A DNA stretch of 25,187 nucleotides. Origin: a virus. The translations under genes were made by a program, and so were the position numbers. Where the stretch lies: positions 1 through 25,187 of IMG/VR virus record IMGVR_UViG_3300025286_000129, one strand, 5' to 3'. The notes beneath the pieces were generated by a model, which ran no database searches, was not told the origin of the DNA, and saw only the letters and a program-made list of their open reading frames with translations. Positions 2,975 to 13,279 of the stretch are shown here, piece after piece. Positions within the stretch are counted from its first letter, which is position 1. Each line of letters starts with the position of its first letter.

Positions 2975-4813
2975 ATGGCGAAACGGAAGCCCGAAGATAT
3001 TGTTAACCTCGTAGACTCACACTATGATGCGACCGAGCCCCTGCGTCAGCGGATGCAGGATGATCATGCCCTTTATCGTTTGGAACCCTATGATGCAGGG
3101 GAAGGATATCAGTCCTATACGTCCAATGAGCCGCAGACCTTTGCGGAAAAGATTATTAACTGGATTACCGGAGCCGATATGACAGTTCGTATTCCCCATG
3201 ATGGGGCAGATGCGGAACTCAGGGAAAAGAATGACCTCAAGGAACGGTTCCTGATAGGTATCGAACGTAGTGCGAATGAACGGCTATGCCGTATGATGCT
3301 ACCCGAACTACGAGACCAGCTAGCCTGGTACTCAGCTATCAGAGGATGGTATGCAGGAAGAGCACTTCTTGCAAAAAGACCTGACGGTTCGACTTATGTT
3401 GATATAACACCGTGGGATCCACTTCATACATACTGGGGTGTAGGCCCAGAAGGTCTTGAATGGGCATGTTACAAGATGCCAAAGACCAAGGATCAGATTT
3501 TCTCACAGTATAGCGTCAAAATCGATTGGGATTTGCCTAATAGTACGGACGGTATCGAGGTATATGACTTCTATGACAAGGAAACAAATACGATACTGAT
3601 ATCTAACGGGGCTTCAAAAAACCCACTGATACAGGTCGTGAAGAAACAAACCACTCACGGAGCAGACCAGGTGCCTGTTTTCCTAGGCCCTGTCGGTGCG
3701 AACCCCTATGTGGTCGCACTAACACAAAGCACGATGGATGATACCATCGCCGATGTTGGCGAATCAGTCTTCCGTGCTACACGGGCTCTGTACCCGAAAC
3801 ATAACTTAATGATGAGTACCATGCTGGAGCTTACCGCACGGTCACGAAGGCAGGGACTTATTGTCAGAAGTAGGGACGGAACGAAGTCTCTTGACGAAGA
3901 CCCGTATCTGGAGGGCTCAGAGATTAGCCTTGCTCAGAACGAAAACGTAGAGCCTTTGGGACTACTGGAGATGGCAAAGGAGACAGGTGCGTTTATGGGT
4001 ATAGTCTCTGGAGAGATGCAGAGAGGCTCACTCCCCTATAGCGTCTACGGAGAACTGCCGTTCCAGTTATCAGGGTTTGCTATTAACACACTCAGGCAGG
4101 GTGTGGAAACCGTGGTGAATAAATATTTGAAGTCTGTGGAGAAAGCGTACCAGATGATTTTTAATTTGATATCTGACCAGTATGCCGCAGGTTCATATAA
4201 GTCTATGGAACTCTCCGGCATGGACAGGAACAGAGTGTTCTTTACGGAAGATATCAGTACAGAGATGTTAAAAAATGCAGGGCAGCCAGTAGTTAAACTG
4301 GTTGGTCAATTGCCACAGGATGATATGACTCGCTTCTCGATGGCTCAGATAGCACGAGAAGGCCCGACACCGCTTCTGTCTGATAGGGCAATCAGGGACA
4401 GGATTCTGTCTTTGCAGGATGCAGACCAGATGGATGATGCCATTAACGAACAGATGGCAGAGCGGATGTTGCCTGAAGCAGCACTCTGGACTCTTCTTAG
4501 ATCTTCAGAAAAGCAGGGCCGTGATGACCTTGCTCAGTTCTATCTCGGTGAGCTGATGTCAGTTATGATGCAGAAACGACAAATCGCAGAGCAACAAGTT
4601 GCACCAGGCCCACCACCAGGAGGGCCACCTCCAATGGGGCCACCGATGGGGCCGTTACCGCCGATGGGGCCTCCGATGGGAGGGCCACCAGGTTTACCAC
4701 CTGAAGTAATGCCCGATGCAATGCTTGGAGTACCGCCTCCTATGCCAACTCCACAGGCTGGGCCAATCGTACCACCAGGAACTCCACGACCTGGTGCACA
4801 AGGAGGAATATAA
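2975..4813 (+). CDS. Portal protein
   Basis: A 612-aa protein immediately after TerL with no spacer, the standard portal position. It would form the dodecameric ring through which DNA enters and leaves the head. The N-terminal half is mixed alpha/beta with the WDPLHTYWG and YKMPKTKDQI segments typical of portal wing regions. The C-terminal half contains long helices (about 360-535). Residues from about 543 to the end form a low-complexity tail of PPMGPP, GPPPGG and similar repeats, with almost no charged residues. That tail is not part of the usual portal fold and is probably disordered. Portal identity rests on size, position and overall character rather than one catalytic motif. Confidence 0.88.
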   Translation: MAKRKPEDIVNLVDSHYDATEPLRQRMQDDHALYRLEPYDAGEGYQSYTSNEPQTFAEKIINWITGADMTVRIPHDGADAELREKNDLKERFLIGIERSANERLCRMMLPELRDQLAWYSAIRGWYAGRALLAKRPDGSTYVDITPWDPLHTYWGVGPEGLEWACYKMPKTKDQIFSQYSVKIDWDLPNSTDGIEVYDFYDKETNTILISNGASKNPLIQVVKKQTTHGADQVPVFLGPVGANPYVVALTQSTMDDTIADVGESVFRATRALYPKHNLMMSTMLELTARSRRQGLIVRSRDGTKSLDEDPYLEGSEISLAQNENVEPLGLLEMAKETGAFMGIVSGEMQRGSLPYSVYGELPFQLSGFAINTLRQGVETVVNKYLKSVEKAYQMIFNLISDQYAAGSYKSMELSGMDRNRVFFTEDISTEMLKNAGQPVVKLVGQLPQDDMTRFSMAQIAREGPTPLLSDRAIRDRILSLQDADQMDDAINEQMAERMLPEAALWTLLRSSEKQGRDDLAQFYLGELMSVMMQKRQIAEQQVAPGPPPGGPPPMGPPMGPLPPMGPPMGGPPGLPPEVMPDAMLGVPPPMPTPQAGPIVPPGTPRPGAQGGI

Positions 4814-7591
4814 ATGGCAAATAACTTTGATATGTTTACTAAAAAAGGGCCATCAAACACATCTGAGAATCTTCCCTATGCGTTCTCGCATATAGCAACA
4901 GGTGCACCTCCTTCAGTGTATATGTCTATGATGACTGGGAATACGTTCGATGAGGCTATGCAGGAAACGAATAATATTCCTTTTGCTACTGATGAAATGG
5001 ATATGGATCTAGACCTCGCCCTCGACCCCGAACTCGATGACCCGGATGCGATTGAAAAGGCAATTTACCAACTGCGTATCGCTGAAGAAAAGGAAATCGA
5101 GCCGGAAGAAGTTTTGGAAACACCTTATGGCCCAGGTCTGTCAGGTGAAGAAATTGATTTATTACTGGATATGTATCCTGCCTTAGATGCAGGAGTAGAC
5201 CTGGATATGATAGATGAAAACTTTGATGAAGTGGATCGTATGCTTGGTGAGTCTGGTGAGAGTATTGAAGCAGCAATGGATGCAGCAGAGCAAAGAGCCG
5301 AGGACGAAGGGGATATCGGATCATCACCAGCATTGATGAGGCAACTGGGAGATAACCTTGGTAATTCTCTAGAGGCTATGTTAAATCCAAGAAACCGTGG
5401 TGAGGAATTGGCAGCGGAAAGCTTCACTAATTCTCCATTTAGCGCACCCGATGCAATAAAAGTAGCAGCGGATAATGCAACAGGAGTCTTTCAAAACTTT
5501 AATAATAATCGCAGCGTACGCTTGGATAACGGACAAGTGCTAGGGCCAAGCGATCTATTGGGTTCTGGTGTTGATACTAATCCAGACCTTATGTTATCTG
5601 GTGCGGAATCACCTAAAGCATCGACAGCTCACTATGACTTTAGGCATATGTTAACACTAATGGAACCTAACGATGATGGGAGCTTCTTAACTCCAGCAGT
5701 GATGATAGAAGAACTGCAAAAAGGTATGAGCAATATAGATACTGCTGAGTATGTGAAAAAGTTCTTTGCTGCTATAGATCGTGGTGAGTTCGACACAACG
5801 TATGGCACTGGACGAGATGTCGACCCAATGGATCGGGGAGAATCTAGACCTTTTACGTATGGAGGCGGCACTTTAAGCCAACTTAAAAAGGATTTAGAAG
5901 GATTGGTGGGGCAGGAAGAGAGAGAACCAGAACAGACGCAACCAACGGAAAGTGAGGAGGAAAAGAAACGGTTCATCGTCACCGAAGACGAAGACGAAGA
6001 CGAAGACGGTTTCGTTGAAAAGGCCCTGCCTCGAGAATTGGCAGATGCCGAATCTCTTTTAGCTGAGAACCTTCAAAAGGTTTTCTACACCTCGATTTAT
6101 GCTTATCCAGAGGCAGGTAGAAGCGATGTCAGGCCCAGGCTACCAAATATTTATAATGATACACGGACATTGTTTTTCTTGGAGTACGGGGGAGACGCGG
6201 TTGCAGTTCTCAATAAGCTGATGGAACTAGAGAAGGAAGAAGATATAGTGATAGGTGACGTGGAAGAAGCGGAGCTACTGGAGAAAAGAAAGAATGTACT
6301 TGGAACGATGGAAGCTAGGTACAAAACGTTTCTTTCAGAATATCTTACTGATCCGACAAGCAAACGCTCAGGTGACTTCTTCAGGAAGAACCTGGCGTTA
6401 ATTAGCAATACCCTATCGTATGCAGCCAACAACCCCGACAGGGAGGATTGGCCCGAAGGGATGGAAGAAAGAGAACTGTGGGTAGATGCCCTGTTTGGGA
6501 CAGGCGGTGGTACCTTTGCTGAAGAGAACCGCAGCAACCTTATAAAGATGGCAGCGTCTCAGGGTGGGAGAGGATGGTATTCTAATCTGATTCACAGCTC
6601 AGTCGATAGGGTTATGAATTACTACGACCGATTAGGTTGGACTGTTGAAAGGATATTTACAAAAATGGCCCAACTTACGGGTATGCCTGTAACCGATCCC
6701 ACTGGGCAGACTGACATAGAGAAGTTAGCGGCGGATTTAGAAACAACAAAGACGCGGGTTACTGACGATATACCCCCTCCTCTGATCACTGAAATTATGC
6801 GGCAACAAGGGCTTCTAGGGAGTCTAGGAGACGGGGGTCTAGGAGAGCTAGGAGAGGAAGATGGTATATTAGATGGCCCCACACAGTTACTACCAGGTAC
6901 AGGTTTTGACGTAGACCCAGTGATAAGAGGAGACGTACCTTACGTGGAGCAGCATCCAGGGATTACTCAGGCCGTGGCAGCCGCCCAAAAACAAAGGGAC
7001 GAAGGAGACTTCTCTGGACTGTTTCCCTTCGAGGGGCCTGGTAGCCCCACGCCAGATGTGGAAGTGGACATGGATCCAATGGCGGAGGACTGGGAGTTCT
7101 ACGCTGACCCGGCTGCTATCCCAGGAGAAGTAGAAGCAAGTAGAGCGCGACAAACAGGAGACGGAGGAGATGCAGAGCGCATATTAGAGATGGACCCCAC
7201 TCGATTATATGGACTCCAGGATTTGGATCCAATGAATCCCCTTAGGGACGAAGTACACGGCTACAGCAGTTTCTCTGGTGTGCCTGTGCAATATGATTAT
7301 CCTGAACCTGGCACTGGGCCAGGGTATGATGTATTACAAGGGGGCGGATATGCTGGTGCAGGCGGAAAGTTAACCCCAGAAGAATTTCAACAAGCTGTAG
7401 ATTATCGGAGATTGGGCATGAAGTTTGGTGGAGGAGGGGGAGCGTTAACTCCAGAACAATGGGCCAAGATACGACCTACTGGGTACGGAACTAGACCAGA
7501 GGTAAACCCGATGCTGCGTGGTGAGCCAGACAATTTTTCCGCCTTTCGTGATGCAAATGGAAGATTGCCCTGGATGAAGCTTAGACTATGA
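4814..7591 (+). CDS. Large acidic protein with recurring GTGxxVDPMxRG motifs; candidate virion/ejection protein
   Basis: This 925-aa protein is not recognised as a known family. Residues 60-170 are strongly acidic, with LDLALDPELDDPD and repeated aspartate/glutamate helices; 391-398 are alternating E and D. A helical region covers about 405-645. The C-terminal quarter is rich in Gly, Pro and Asp and looks disordered. The motif GTGxxVDPMxRGE occurs at residues 330-343, 695-707 and 891-904, and again in the next gene. Two LTPE elements (853-856 and 878-881) are each preceded by a glycine run. It has no predicted TM segment or enzyme motif. Its place between portal and scaffold suggests an internal virion, portal-associated or ejection role (inference). 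The stop-to-start spacing with the portal gene is zero. Confidence 0.75.
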   Translation: MANNFDMFTKKGPSNTSENLPYAFSHIATGAPPSVYMSMMTGNTFDEAMQETNNIPFATDEMDMDLDLALDPELDDPDAIEKAIYQLRIAEEKEIEPEEVLETPYGPGLSGEEIDLLLDMYPALDAGVDLDMIDENFDEVDRMLGESGESIEAAMDAAEQRAEDEGDIGSSPALMRQLGDNLGNSLEAMLNPRNRGEELAAESFTNSPFSAPDAIKVAADNATGVFQNFNNNRSVRLDNGQVLGPSDLLGSGVDTNPDLMLSGAESPKASTAHYDFRHMLTLMEPNDDGSFLTPAVMIEELQKGMSNIDTAEYVKKFFAAIDRGEFDTTYGTGRDVDPMDRGESRPFTYGGGTLSQLKKDLEGLVGQEEREPEQTQPTESEEEKKRFIVTEDEDEDEDGFVEKALPRELADAESLLAENLQKVFYTSIYAYPEAGRSDVRPRLPNIYNDTRTLFFLEYGGDAVAVLNKLMELEKEEDIVIGDVEEAELLEKRKNVLGTMEARYKTFLSEYLTDPTSKRSGDFFRKNLALISNTLSYAANNPDREDWPEGMEERELWVDALFGTGGGTFAEENRSNLIKMAASQGGRGWYSNLIHSSVDRVMNYYDRLGWTVERIFTKMAQLTGMPVTDPTGQTDIEKLAADLETTKTRVTDDIPPPLITEIMRQQGLLGSLGDGGLGELGEEDGILDGPTQLLPGTGFDVDPVIRGDVPYVEQHPGITQAVAAAQKQRDEGDFSGLFPFEGPGSPTPDVEVDMDPMAEDWEFYADPAAIPGEVEASRARQTGDGGDAERILEMDPTRLYGLQDLDPMNPLRDEVHGYSSFSGVPVQYDYPEPGTGPGYDVLQGGGYAGAGGKLTPEEFQQAVDYRRLGMKFGGGGGALTPEQWAKIRPTGYGTRPEVNPMLRGEPDNFSAFRDANGRLPWMKLRL

Positions 7592-7630
7592 CAAACGGTT
7601 CTTATATAATAAACTTGGAAGGATAATAAT

Positions 7631-8359
7631 ATGGCTAACGGATTTGCACAATACGGAACTGGATTGAATGTTGATCCAATGGATCGTGGTGCACCTAATT
7701 TTGGATTTCCCATTAGCACACCAGAAGCCTCGGAAGGCTTTGGGGGATTCGCAGGAGATGCTGCTGCTTTCCGTAGTCCATCCGAGGATTGGGCTAGACT
7801 ACAAACAAGGATGAGTCCCTTCTGGCAGGAACGTGCTCCTATGAACGATTTGATATCAAGGATGATGGGAAGGTATTACTTAGGAGCCCCGTATATATCA
7901 ACAGCAGAGAGGCCTAATCCGACTTTTGCGGATTACCTAACAAGATATACTAGTCCTGCTGCTGGTGCTACCGCCCCACCGGCGATGGCAAGTTTAGAAG
8001 ACTTACGAAGCCGGGCAAGGGAAGCAGCCCAAGCATCAACATTTGTAGGTGGACCGGATGCTTATGTAGCTGCGTCACAGAATCCAGAGGAATTGAGGAG
8101 AAGAGCCGTATATGCTAGTTTGTTTGGACAAGATGCAGCAAACCAAGCAGCAAATCAATTAGCGGTAGCTCAGACACTTGCGATGCAACGAGTAGATCCT
8201 GAAACTGGTAGGGCAGCGGGTACGTATCGAGGAAGAATGGGTGATGCCATACGGAGAGCGTTGCAAGGAGTTCAGCAGTATCGGACAGCGCAGGGAGCCC
8301 CAAGAGAAAGTTTTCTTGATTGGTACTTGGGTAAATACCATCCAAAAGCAACGACATAA
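7631..8359 (+). CDS. Motif-sharing virion-associated protein, 242 aa
   Basis: No known family is recognised. The N-terminus (residues 8-21) carries YGTGLNVDPMDRGA, the same motif found three times in the preceding protein. A second module, an aromatic helix followed by (P/A)xxSFxDYL, occurs twice: around 94-110 (PTFADYLTRY) and 223-238 (APRESFLDWYLGKY), and again in the next gene. The middle (118-215) is alanine-rich and helical. The gene is preceded by GGAAGGAT (from about 7617) and lies 39 bp after the previous stop. Sharing motifs with both neighbours suggests the three products bind a common partner, perhaps in the capsid interior. That is inference. Confidence 0.75.
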   Translation: MANGFAQYGTGLNVDPMDRGAPNFGFPISTPEASEGFGGFAGDAAAFRSPSEDWARLQTRMSPFWQERAPMNDLISRMMGRYYLGAPYISTAERPNPTFADYLTRYTSPAAGATAPPAMASLEDLRSRAREAAQASTFVGGPDAYVAASQNPEELRRRAVYASLFGQDAANQAANQLAVAQTLAMQRVDPETGRAAGTYRGRMGDAIRRALQGVQQYRTAQGAPRESFLDWYLGKYHPKATT

Positions 8360-8369
8360 GGAGTGAATG

Positions 8370-8702
8370 ATGCCAACTTTTAACGACTATAGCCCTGACT
8401 GGTGGCAGGAAGTTCTTAGAGGCTTCGAGCCAGCTCAGTATTACAGCTCCCCAGCAGGTATGCAATTCGGAAGAAGAAGTCCTCGTCGGCAACGGTATTT
8501 TCAGGATGCGTATGAGGATACACTGAAAGATTATTATCAACAGGCAGGGACTGCGATGAGGGGCGGACAGGCTCCAGCAAGTTTTATGGATTACCTGGAG
8601 ACCAACCCGTGGACAGCACGGTATTCATCTTTACCCCAGACATCTCGTGGGGTAACTGGTATGGCAGCTAATCCCAGAACGAGGTTTTTATTTAATTACT
8701 AA
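8370..8702 (+). CDS. Small aromatic-rich protein with SFxDYL module
   Basis: A 110-aa protein of unknown family, rich in Tyr, Trp, Phe and Arg. It begins with PTFNDYSPDWW and has APASFMDYLETN at about residues 68-79, matching modules in the 242-aa protein just upstream. ATG occurs twice (8367 and 8370); the AAGGAG at 8358-8363 is only 3 nt from the first and 6 nt from the second, so 8370 is preferred. The stop TAA shares its last base with the ATG of the next gene (8702), implying translational coupling. The role is unknown; context suggests the same virion complex as its neighbours. Confidence 0.7.
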   Translation: MPTFNDYSPDWWQEVLRGFEPAQYYSSPAGMQFGRRSPRRQRYFQDAYEDTLKDYYQQAGTAMRGGQAPASFMDYLETNPWTARYSSLPQTSRGVTGMAANPRTRFLFNY

Positions 8703-11700
8703 TGGGTAGATTAACTCCACAAGAAATCGAAGAATTAAGAAAGGAACAGTCAGGCGTTAAAGAGCCCGTAAAGACAACTGACGTTGGAGTTCCTGTAGAG
8801 AGCCGTGACAGAACAACTGGACGCGGCTTACCTAGTATGAAATGGTGGGGTTTGCCAGAGAAAGAATATTGGCCAGACCCAGACGATCTACCGAGCCTTG
8901 GGGAGATTTGGTATACAGGAGAGCGTTTTGCAGGATTAGGTCTTGGAACAGTAATGGCTGATACGCGCAAATATCCTGGAGCATTCAGAGCGTTTAGGGA
9001 TCACGCTAGTAGGGGTGATTGGGACGCTGCAATCGAGGCGTATCAGGACGAGCTGGATATGCCCAAGTATTACTGGGGAGCTTCCGAGGTAATAGCACCC
9101 ATCATTCTTACAGGTGGTCTTGCGGGGGCGGGGAAAGGACTTATGTCTGCCGCTCCGAAACTTGCAACAACTCTCGGAAGGTTTTTACCTGCCACCCGTG
9201 GTGGTGTTAGGGCAATACGTGGTATAGAGACAGGATTAAGAGGGATAGGCAAGGGGCTTAGGGCTCCTTGGCAAGCAGAAGAAGCAGTAGCTAGGGCGGC
9301 TTTGAGAGGGCTAACATATCCTTTCCGAAAAGGAGCCTCTTTGCTAGGCAGACGAACCGGAGCAGAAGTAGGGCAGCAAGCCGTAGGCGATATGCCCGTT
9401 GAAGATGTTATTAAGGCTGATGAAATCCTTGGCTCACCTCAACCCCCCGAACTCGGATTTTATGCCCAGATACACAGACAAAGACAAAATGCGATACGTG
9501 CCTTAGAGAATGAATATACAAAAGCAAAGGAACGATTATTGCCATGGAGGGAACAGCCGTTAGCGCAACAAAAACCTCGTATGCGAGAAGATATAATGCG
9601 GGACCGTGAGTTCGTTGAAACATTTGATGAGCGGCTTGCTTCTGCAAAAGCAGACGAGAGAGCTGCAAGAGAGGCAATGGAAACTTATAGCGACCCACCA
9701 GATATCCAGTTATCCATTCGTCAGACATCCCGGGTCGATGACCTAACACGAGGAAAGAAGCCACCAAAGCGTGCCACAAGAGCCGAGGCTGAACGTGGTC
9801 CGTCTGAGATTAACTTAGATTTCATGGCAGGATTTGAAGCGGCTCCAAAGCTAGGATGGTGGAGCGGTAAGGTTAATGCACTACACGAAATAACCAAAGG
9901 TTTGTTGGGCTCGAAAAGACGCACTGCTGTAGAAGGTGTGATAGAAACATACAAGAGAGTACAGAAAGATATTGTGTCCAAAGCAGAGAGTGCTGCGAAC
10001 ATCGTAAGAATATTTGTTAGGAAAGGAATGCAGGACAACTTCAAAGTAGATCCCGAGACAGGACATATCCTAGACGATGCACTCCAGAACAGGGTGAGGA
10101 TATGGTTTAAGGATGCTGAGGCAGTACTGCAATCGCCGACGATACCGGACATAGCAGCACGGTACGATGTATATGCACGGTTCCTTACTGCGGGACAAAA
10201 AGTCTTTATACGTGCAATCCGACATATTCTTGAAGACGGAACCACGTGGGAAGTGGGAGGAACCAAGCTTAGTATGCCTGGATATAACAGGGTGCTTAGG
10301 GAGAATATGCCTGGGTTTGCCCCAGAGCGTATACGACCCGATATAACGGGTAATGGGTTCTATATAACAAGAGGAGCAGTCAAGATTGGGAATGAAGTAG
10401 TAACCAGTATTGCGGACGAACTAGAGAAGATGGTAACGCTTGGAAAGAAACGTATGCCAGGTAAAATCGCTGCCGAGCAAAGGGCAACGATGCCCGTTAT
10501 GGGCAAGCTGGTCGATGCCCAAGGCAAGGTTATTCCTCACGTTGACACTAAAGGAAGAATAATTAAGTATGAGTCTTTCGACAAAACGATGGAGGATTTT
10601 ATCAAGGGTGTTGCCAACAGGGTTACTGGCTACAGGGTCAAAACAAGGGTAAAAGCACTTGCTGAAAAACACATAGGCACGGCAAGGATCAAAAAGGAGA
10701 TAATAGAAAAGGGGATAATAGAAGGGGTAGAAGATGCTGATGATGCTTTGGCGGCTGCGATAAACCGTGAGTTCAGCAGGTCACTAGGGGAAGCAGCAGC
10801 AAACCTCCCCGTAATCAGGAATATTAACAACATGTATCGTGGGATTAAAGCGAACGGTGATCTGTCTGCTCTCAGTATACAAGGGCATCTTGCAATGACC
10901 AGAGCCCCTAAACAATGGGTGCAAGCAACGAATGTAATATTCAAATCTCTTGCGGCAACCATGAAGGGGGGACTGCCTGGAGGTCGGGCAAGGGGACAAG
11001 AACTTGTTGACGAAGCCATGGAAGTGTTTAACGTAGACGCAGTAAAAAATAATCGTCTTGTTTCCCGAGTATGGGCATATTTTGGATTGCGTGTAGGTGG
11101 CACTTCCGTAGAGACAGCACTCCCAGGAGTCGAAAGGTTGTTGGGACAGGCAGGAAAGGGATTCCGTGGAAGAGTCGCTGCTGGAGCTAGGGGAATAGGC
11201 GGAGCGTTCCAACTAAGTAACCGTCTGTACGGGGCTTGGGGTGATGTGTTGCGTCTGCGATGGGCAGACGAACTACTAAGACAGGAACTTGCCAAGGGTA
11301 GAACAATTCAGGAACTGGCTGATTCAGGTGACTTAAACCAAATAGCAAATGCCACAAACAGATTGACCGGGTGGTCAAATAAGCGATTTGGTGGTGACAT
11401 CGGTGAGCTATCAATGTTTGCAGCAAGGTTCTTCCAGGCACGACTCGAAACATTTGGTCGGTCCTTAGTTGGGGCAAGCCAGTTGAGGCTACCGACATGG
11501 GCAGCACTGGGAGCTATTGGGCGAACAAGGGTGAACGTGCCATTCCGAGGAAGACCGATGATAGAATCTGATGTGCTTACAAGTATCGGAAGGAAACAGA
11601 CGATAGAAAACAGGGAAGCACTGCAATCAATTATTCGTATGATTGGATTGAGTATGTTCGCAACAGAGTTCGCAAACGCCATGCTGGGCAACGAGACAGA

Positions 11701-13279
11701 CCACAGGCCGATTGTGGATGGGAAAATAAACTCGAACTTCTACACTGTACGAATGGGTGGACGAGACTTCTCATTCTTTGGTCCGGCAATTGGTTTGGTC
11801 AGAGCTATAGGTACACTTGGGATAGGGATAACAGAAGACCCATCTCCACGGGGAGTCGCTAAGGCAATGGCTGCGGCATCAAAGGGTCTTGGTGGTGGTG
11901 TGGTACGTCTGGTATGGGACAATGTGACAGGTTATGGATTTACGGGAGATCCAGCCCCAATAGGAGTTTTCAGGGAAGACCCTGAAATAGGCAGAGTGTC
12001 TGACCCCAGGAATTTATCAGAGGCGTTGGATATTCTCCAATATGTTGGTGAACTAGCAATACCAATCGCACCTGGTGCGGTAGGTGGGGAACTATTTGAA
12101 GGAGTTAAATCCGCTAGGGAAGGGGACTGGGGACGTGTTGCTGGAGCAGGGTTAGCGTCAGTGGGTGAAGTAGCCGGAGTAAGGGTAACCCGTATTACGA
12201 GGAAAGAGGAAGCGGAGGAACTCTCTCAAGAGAAATATGGTGTGCCTTATGAGTCTCTCACTTATCAGGTGCAAGATGAAATAGATGATCTTCTAACGGA
12301 ACGGATGGGCGAGGATACCTACGGTGGGCCAAAGGAATACCTCCACAAACGGAGAGAGAAAGCTGATGATAAACTGATAGAGAGAACTCAGGAAATCTCA
12401 AATGAATGGCTGTCTGGATCACCTGCGGGCACAGGTTATCATCCGCCTGCAGCGAGAAAGCTGCTTAATGAGGCAAAAGCAGTGCATCGTCGCACAAACT
12501 ATGGTGAGCAATGGAGTGAAGAAAAGGGGCGCATGACTGGTGGGATACTGGAGCAGCTATATGATAGAGATGAGGAGAAAGAGGTTCCTGAGCAAGGTAC
12601 TAGGGAGTATCGGATATGGCAATACGGCCAGACATTTGTCGACGCTACTGATAAGCAAACAGGAGAACTGGATTTCGACAAGCTGAACAAATTGCAAGGT
12701 AGATTCTGGGCAAGCCTGAGATACAGATTTGATCCAACAACAGGACGAAGGGTTAATGAAGTAGATGAAATGCTGGAAAGTATTAGGCTAATGGAAGGGG
12801 ATTATGATCCGAGAATGCAATACCTTGTGGACGCTGGACGTTATGCAGGAAGCCTGAGGCTTAACGTGAAAGGGGAAACTGTTGGTTACTATGACCTTGA
12901 GAATCACAAGAAGGTCGAGGATTATATTGTAGACAGAACTAAAGCGCATGATGTAAGCAGAGCGGCCATTCGAGCGTATCTGAAGAAAGGATACGAAGAG
13001 CGTAAAGCAGCCCGAAAGAGTAAGCAGGGAGAACGTATCGGGAAAGTACTGGCTATCGCATCGAGTGAGGGCGGCATCTTGTGGACGCTACGAGATGAGT
13101 TTGTTAAAAGGGCTCCTGAAGAGTGGAGATTGGCTATGTTTGAGGCGGGTTATCGTTACCAGGGCAAGACGGGCGAGAAGGGCTATGAGTATGCCATGTT
13201 TAAAAGGATAAGGGCAGGCACACCCCATCCTAGGCTAGACTATAAAAGACTGTATAGGGGTACGCTAATTGGACAATAA
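8702..13279 (+). CDS. Giant internal virion / ejection-type protein (1525 aa)
   Basis: The largest gene in the window. The product is long, helical and rich in Arg, Lys, Glu and Ala, as expected for proteins packed in the head and ejected with DNA. It starts GRLTPQEIEEL, sharing LTPE-type sequence with the 925-aa protein. A hydrophobic Gly/Ala-rich segment lies at about 125-150, followed by basic Gly/Arg helices to about 220. Around residues 720-940 the order DLSALSIQGHLAM, then SGDLNQIANATNRLTGW, then FAARFFQARLETF resembles the 'large polyvalent protein associated' type of domain seen in many phage ejection proteins (from memory). Hydrophobic segments recur at about 977-997 and 1023-1043. 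No lytic transglycosylase or peptidase motif was seen. Role by size, composition and context. Confidence 0.78.
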   Translation: MGRLTPQEIEELRKEQSGVKEPVKTTDVGVPVESRDRTTGRGLPSMKWWGLPEKEYWPDPDDLPSLGEIWYTGERFAGLGLGTVMADTRKYPGAFRAFRDHASRGDWDAAIEAYQDELDMPKYYWGASEVIAPIILTGGLAGAGKGLMSAAPKLATTLGRFLPATRGGVRAIRGIETGLRGIGKGLRAPWQAEEAVARAALRGLTYPFRKGASLLGRRTGAEVGQQAVGDMPVEDVIKADEILGSPQPPELGFYAQIHRQRQNAIRALENEYTKAKERLLPWREQPLAQQKPRMREDIMRDREFVETFDERLASAKADERAAREAMETYSDPPDIQLSIRQTSRVDDLTRGKKPPKRATRAEAERGPSEINLDFMAGFEAAPKLGWWSGKVNALHEITKGLLGSKRRTAVEGVIETYKRVQKDIVSKAESAANIVRIFVRKGMQDNFKVDPETGHILDDALQNRVRIWFKDAEAVLQSPTIPDIAARYDVYARFLTAGQKVFIRAIRHILEDGTTWEVGGTKLSMPGYNRVLRENMPGFAPERIRPDITGNGFYITRGAVKIGNEVVTSIADELEKMVTLGKKRMPGKIAAEQRATMPVMGKLVDAQGKVIPHVDTKGRIIKYESFDKTMEDFIKGVANRVTGYRVKTRVKALAEKHIGTARIKKEIIEKGIIEGVEDADDALAAAINREFSRSLGEAAANLPVIRNINNMYRGIKANGDLSALSIQGHLAMTRAPKQWVQATNVIFKSLAATMKGGLPGGRARGQELVDEAMEVFNVDAVKNNRLVSRVWAYFGLRVGGTSVETALPGVERLLGQAGKGFRGRVAAGARGIGGAFQLSNRLYGAWGDVLRLRWADELLRQELAKGRTIQELADSGDLNQIANATNRLTGWSNKRFGGDIGELSMFAARFFQARLETFGRSLVGASQLRLPTWAALGAIGRTRVNVPFRGRPMIESDVLTSIGRKQTIENREALQSIIRMIGLSMFATEFANAMLGNETDHRPIVDGKINSNFYTVRMGGRDFSFFGPAIGLVRAIGTLGIGITEDPSPRGVAKAMAAASKGLGGGVVRLVWDNVTGYGFTGDPAPIGVFREDPEIGRVSDPRNLSEALDILQYVGELAIPIAPGAVGGELFEGVKSAREGDWGRVAGAGLASVGEVAGVRVTRITRKEEAEELSQEKYGVPYESLTYQVQDEIDDLLTERMGEDTYGGPKEYLHKRREKADDKLIERTQEISNEWLSGSPAGTGYHPPAARKLLNEAKAVHRRTNYGEQWSEEKGRMTGGILEQLYDRDEEKEVPEQGTREYRIWQYGQTFVDATDKQTGELDFDKLNKLQGRFWASLRYRFDPTTGRRVNEVDEMLESIRLMEGDYDPRMQYLVDAGRYAGSLRLNVKGETVGYYDLENHKKVEDYIVDRTKAHDVSRAAIRAYLKKGYEERKAARKSKQGERIGKVLAIASSEGGILWTLRDEFVKRAPEEWRLAMFEAGYRYQGKTGEKGYEYAMFKRIRAGTPHPRLDYKRLYRGTLIGQ

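Follow-up and report, generated by a model that had tools for sequence, protein, structure and literature searches.

A short repeated peptide in disordered segments of two neighbouring proteins of a phage head gene block, and its possible role as a private docking motif

The head gene block and the four copies of the motif

The stretch of DNA analysed in this study, hereafter the window, is a virus contig of 25,187 bases, classed after IMG/VR. The small terminase (TerS), the large terminase (TerL) and the major capsid protein were recognised by PHROGs and Pfam, with the capsid protein matching Pfam Phage_capsid_4 above the cut-off. Based on position and conserved synteny, the gene order is TerS-TerL-portal-p925-p242-p111-p1525-scaffold-capsid. 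The putative portal protein (an ORF at 2975..4813, on the + strand like the window genes and motif copies with coordinates given below) and the scaffold had no match in PHROGs or Pfam, and both were named from their place in the block, the portal also from its conservation in relatives. The C-terminus of the portal (window 4600-4810) is a long low-complexity tail rich in Pro, Gly and Met (PPGGPPPMGPPMG...). Directly 3' of the portal gene lies the ORF of p925 (4814..7591), with homologues in the same place in relatives, followed by the ORF of p242 (7631..8359). The next gene, p111 (8367..8702), is a slow-evolving neighbour with 50-79% identity in the family and served as a marker of the gene block, and p1525 (8702..13279) encodes a large, fast-evolving protein without the motif, a candidate fellow internal protein. 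The p925, p242 and p1525 genes evolve much faster than the adjoining head genes. The p1525 homologues of relatives range from about 1340 to 2208 aa and look mosaic; those of relatives L103 and L097 are alike, and most other pairings with L103 are not. A small Pro/Gly-rich protein (131-143 aa) takes two alternative positions in the block, before p111 in L105 (near 8530-8960) and before p428 in L108 (18482-18874) and L120 (13841-14269). The capsid protein of the window is distantly related to that of pelagiphages such as HTVC026P and HTVC111P (27-32% identity, profile E about 1e-39), and none of the other profiles matched these pelagiphages.

An earlier note, made from the sequence alone, had described four copies of a peptide across two adjacent genes, and all four were borne out, in frame, three in p925 and one in p242. 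Copy 1 (YGTGRDVDPMDRGE, 5801..5842) lies at p925 residue 330 in a linker, copy 2 (GTGFDVDPVIRGD, 6896..6934) at residue 695 in the C-terminal tail, copy 3 (YGTRPEVNPMLRGE, 7484..7525) at residue 891 near the C-terminus, and copy 4 (YGTGLNVDPMDRGA, 7652..7693) at residues 8-21 of p242, in its disordered N-tail of about 40 residues. Copies 3 and 4 thus stand on either side of the p925/p242 gene junction. The peptide comprises about 13-14 residues with the general form YGTGxxVDPMxRGE; the consensus of the four copies is [YP]GT[GR]x[DNE]V[DN]P[MV]xRG[EDA], in which G, T, V, P, R and G are invariant. The two proteins share the motif YGTGxxVDPMxRG and have no detectable common domain.

The four copies exceed chance. 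The p925/p242 cross-gene match had a score of 62; one pair among 5000 local shuffles came as high, and a Gumbel fit puts p at about 1.5e-4. With a profile built from copies 1 and 4, copy 2 scored 42 and copy 3 scored 40.5, whereas 5000 shuffles gave at most 39.5. The degenerate fifth copy suspected earlier, GSGVDTNPDLMLSG, scored -20.5 and is not a copy. When the other genes of the window were scanned, none had a copy, confining the motif to p925 and p242; the best match outside them, LGIGITEDPSPRGV in p1525, scored 21.5, inside the shuffle range, and a weak p1525 match, LGIGITEDPSPRG, was likewise no better than the shuffles. The p925 tail also holds a second small repeat, GGKLTPEEF / GGALTPEQW (window 7340-7465, p925 residues 843-883), and a segment DPMAEDWEFYADPA (window 7070-7111, residues 753-766) that resembles TPMDSDWEYWTDPA near residue 740 of the p925 of L105, the tails being divergent.

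AlphaFold2 (AF2) models built with 26 to 29 homologues gave a confident all-helical p242 (mean pLDDT 83), with low confidence for the first 40 residues, including copy 4. For p925, the model comprises an N-terminal helical domain at about residues 15-235 and a helical core at about 405-625 with pLDDT mostly above 90, together with a disordered linker (about 236-400) and tail (about 640-925). The pLDDT of p925 was below 50 at residues 239-285, 320-402 and most of 644-925, and copies 1, 2 and 3 fall inside these segments. The pLDDT is below about 60 around all four copies, which are thus predicted to lie on flexible tethers and not within the folded parts. No significant match by PHROGs, PDB profile or Foldseek was found for p242 or for p925, the two folded parts of which were modelled together.

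The codons of the copies bear on whether the peptide itself is maintained. Any two copies agree at 6-11 of 14 positions, and 15 of the 48 identical residues in the pooled copy pairs use the same codon (six pairs, non-independent and with small numbers). This is close to the agreement expected of independent draws from the codon use of the genome, which for copies 1 and 4 would give 3.4 of 10. In comparison, TerL and the portal of the closest relative, L089, have the same codon at fractions of 0.57 and 0.61. Residues kept while synonymous codons approach saturation indicate selection on the peptide, and it is likely that the peptide is under selection whether the copies are old duplicates or convergent. 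Copies 3 and 4, with the same codon at 5 of 7 identical residues, may be a younger pair. The earlier reading of a short linear motif rather than a duplicated domain is therefore supported, since the copies lie in disordered segments between unrelated flanks and keep their residues despite nearly randomised codons.

Distribution of the motif and private repeats of related phages

A TerL scan of IMG/VR identified 532 relatives, and the 80 best were retained; scanning with a p111 profile yielded 63 loci with the gene block. Although these scans found relatives, single-protein scans with p925, p242 and p1525 found none, and a scan with the p925 N-domain returned only L089 and the same species. Among the 63 block-sharing loci and the best 80 of the 532 TerL relatives, the motif was absent outside its own species (L002 and L009 being the same species), and even relatives with TerL 80-94% identical had no motif. 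The earlier note had made conservation in homologues the test of its motif; homologues do not keep it, which refutes a family-wide signal, and the searches of the window and of related phages limit it to p925 and p242 of its own species. A strict pattern search of IMG/VR returned the same phage only, and the five other loci found by a looser pattern were unrelated ORFs without the RG end. A core motif common to the family was also considered: VDP and YGTG are enriched over shuffles, yet many of their occurrences are positions in folded domains (FMDP in the p925 family, YRxxYGTG in the p242 core), and therefore they do not represent a shared docking core.

The absence of the motif from close relatives can be followed in L089, the closest relative with a complete p925 (TerL 93%). 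Its p925 aligns with that of the window at the folded parts, and all three p925 motif sites correspond to gaps or unrelated sequence. The two proteins are 81% identical over residues 1-200, with the same codon at a fraction of 0.74, and only 26-37% identical past residue 200, with 0.30-0.48 same codons (37% and 0.48 in the core). This jump in divergence likely marks a recombination boundary near p925 residue 200, within a probable virion gene. Since the difference between the window and L089 fits one contiguous-block swap from about this residue, independent change of the four copies need not be assumed, and a single swap could have replaced the whole motif set at once. In addition, p925 and p242, which are separate genes in most relatives, form one ORF in L036, and a single ORF lies between the portal and p111 in L137 and L139-L142, which makes the p925/p242 gene boundary evolutionarily unstable; it may be most apt to treat the pair as a single functional unit.

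Private repeats were sought by an ungapped search within each genome, and several relatives have their own, different repeated peptide in p925 and p242. L103 carries TAGMEMAGGxxExxRFA twice in p925 and twice in p242; L116 has several copies of DPRSRLxFDPTIP in p242 and one copy each of LSFADAMALGVTGDPNFGRG in p925 and p242; and L101 has three copies of SVPNWINDPYSWQN and one copy of EEYLGDPAxxVGL in each of the two proteins. Further private repeats include PETLEDLRIEDQPMDVGG in L093, INMMDPQLTGGTR in L099, APxDLPYGEWQQ in L091 and YTEPxYGGFGGEST in L119. Each genome has its motif in p925 and p242 only. Thus, the habit of the family, as read from these sequences, is a private repeated peptide in the same two genes and not one peptide, which points to docking tags that change quickly and not to a single universal signal.

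The significance of the repeats was estimated by local shuffles, in which p<=0.01 is the floor of 100 shuffles. At this level, a within-gene repeat was found in 11 of 36 systems and a cross-gene p925/p242 repeat in 5 of 31. Of the two control proteins, p1525 reached this level in 2 of 28 systems and the portal in 0 of 31. More than half of the systems showed no significant repeat, and repetition is consequently not required. These data bear on the most serious alternative, that the repeats simply arise as duplication and recombination act on disordered spacers, of which only length and composition matter, and that the peptide itself binds nothing. Some repeats in relatives are indeed recent DNA duplications with nearly identical codons (21 of 21 in L101, 10 of 11 in L041, 9 of 9 in L046 and 17 of 18 in L120), and the mosaic p925, with its divergence jump near residue 200, is also as expected from such a process. 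However, most of the repeats of L103, L093, L099, L119 and L116 resemble those of the window in that residues are kept with codons near independence, and the control proteins rarely or never repeat. Moreover, the L103 motif, as TAGMEMAGG-LE-RF, is retained once in L105 (TAGMEMAGELLEQQRF), although the flanking linker is unalignable and p925 is 22-30% identical. We consider this neutral explanation somewhat unlikely, and it keeps substantial weight because more than half of the systems are without repeats and some repeats are recent duplications.

Purifying selection on the peptide beyond that on its flanks is thus indicated by the codons and by the conservation between L103 and L105, both from small samples and, for the codons, non-independent pairs. 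A C-tail motif, SMPEPFDDExxxRKxKGLPY(LTGRW), is also found, whole or in part, in L091, L099, L105, L108 and L113, of which the tails otherwise hardly align. Taken together, the sequences speak for functional linear motifs in the p925 tails, motifs that turn over and are sometimes multiplied.

Possible roles of the peptide

The best explanation, which we put forward tentatively, is that the peptide is a hypervariable short linear motif private to the phage, of a kind that is partly multi-copy, tying p925 and p242 to a common partner for head assembly or DNA delivery. Carried by the linker and tails of the co-encoded p925 and p242, which are predicted to be disordered, the copies of both proteins would bind one common partner, and the several copies on flexible tethers would raise the avidity. 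Such binding would gather p925 and p242 ahead of DNA packaging, and the procapsid, close to the portal, is the most likely site. As the motif is wholly different between related phages, the partner should be lineage-specific or a host factor; the capsid protein (68-84% identity), the portal and p111 are well conserved despite the differing motifs, which makes a fast-evolving protein or a host factor the more likely partner. Candidates are the p242 or p925 core and p1525 among lineage-specific phage proteins, or a host protein.

If the partner were a host protein, p925 and p242 might be ejected with the DNA, with tails that bind it and a motif that changes with the host. The genes lie between portal and scaffold, where internal proteins might be encoded, together with that of a very large protein that evolves fast, and p925, p242 and p1525 outpace their neighbours in evolution; weak constraint could equally explain this divergence, and the host search, in which TerL was scanned against 84,980 prokaryote genomes, gave no relative. 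We regard this host-directed role as unlikely.

The tails might instead bind the cores of p925 or p242 themselves and hold the pair together. The restriction of the motif to these two proteins and their fusion or replacement by one ORF in the relatives mentioned above agree with this proposal. Furthermore, in the one case of a shared motif, that of L103 and L105, p242 is more alike than in any other comparison made with L103, while p925 and p1525 are very different, a hint that p242 may be the partner. However, L103/L105 is a single comparison, and we judge such self-association to be distinctly improbable.

The earlier note had offered docking or processing as the function of its short linear motif, and the second part fared poorly: cleavage by a prohead protease is very unlikely, because, although phage internal proteins are often cut at short motifs, as by T4 gp21 and SPN3US gp245 (PMC7411985), PHROGs and Pfam identified no protease among the 18 window proteins that were scanned, many of which had no match, and the motif is completely different between relatives.

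Returning to the private docking motif, one extension of this reading, to which we assign a low probability, is a phage-specific address tag, in which every lineage of the family would mark its co-packaged proteins with a private multi-copy peptide, and this peptide would be replaced together with its own assembly reader as the lineages diverge. If true, such a tag would prevent the mixing of particle components when two related phages co-infect one cell.

The disordered tails of phage head proteins cannot be aligned and are usually dismissed as spacers. Repetition within a genome exposes a candidate binding motif in them without alignment across species, and among the relatives such motifs turn over completely while the capsid, portal and terminase change slowly. 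This approach may offer a general route to docking peptides in fast-evolving proteins and a testable handle on the recruitment of internal proteins in an uncharacterised marine phage group.

Comparison with known systems

In the literature, our search for linear motifs or disorder in phage ejection proteins revealed no directly comparable case. By analogy, the nearest known ways of working are those of the T4 capsid targeting sequence (CTS) and the domain bearing encapsulin cargo motifs. In T4, the CTS of IPI-IPIII and Alt directs these internal proteins, which are otherwise unrelated, to the core of the prohead (PMC3012670, PMC7411985). The peptide of the window is likewise short, lies in flexible regions and is common to otherwise unrelated co-encoded proteins, of which the internal location is putative. 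Unlike the CTS, which is single, N-terminal and cleaved off by gp21, it occurs in several, mostly internal copies, with only copy 4 being N-terminal; no protease was recognised in the window proteins scanned, and the peptide differs completely between close relatives.

Encapsulin cargo motifs recruit protein into an HK97-fold shell, and the SrpI-associated cysteine desulfurase has a disordered N-terminal domain with two short conserved motifs (PMC8049743). The resemblance lies in a short motif within a fast-evolving segment, which is disordered in the AF2 models. Whereas homologues retain the encapsulin motifs, which serve to load an enzyme, the present peptide is private to one lineage and common to two proteins, with putative shell binding, and relatives outside the species lack it although their capsid proteins are 68-84% identical. 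It cannot be filed under either the T4 CTS or the encapsulin motifs, given its mostly internal copies, the lack of a recognised protease among the window proteins scanned, and the absence of the motif from homologues whose capsid protein is well conserved. Finally, large fast-evolving proteins within the head gene block are a feature common to the window and to podoviruses with internal or ejection proteins of the P22 and T7 types. The searches by PHROGs, PDB profile and Foldseek gave no significant match of p925 or p242 to any such protein, and the genes of the window are placed between the portal and the scaffold.
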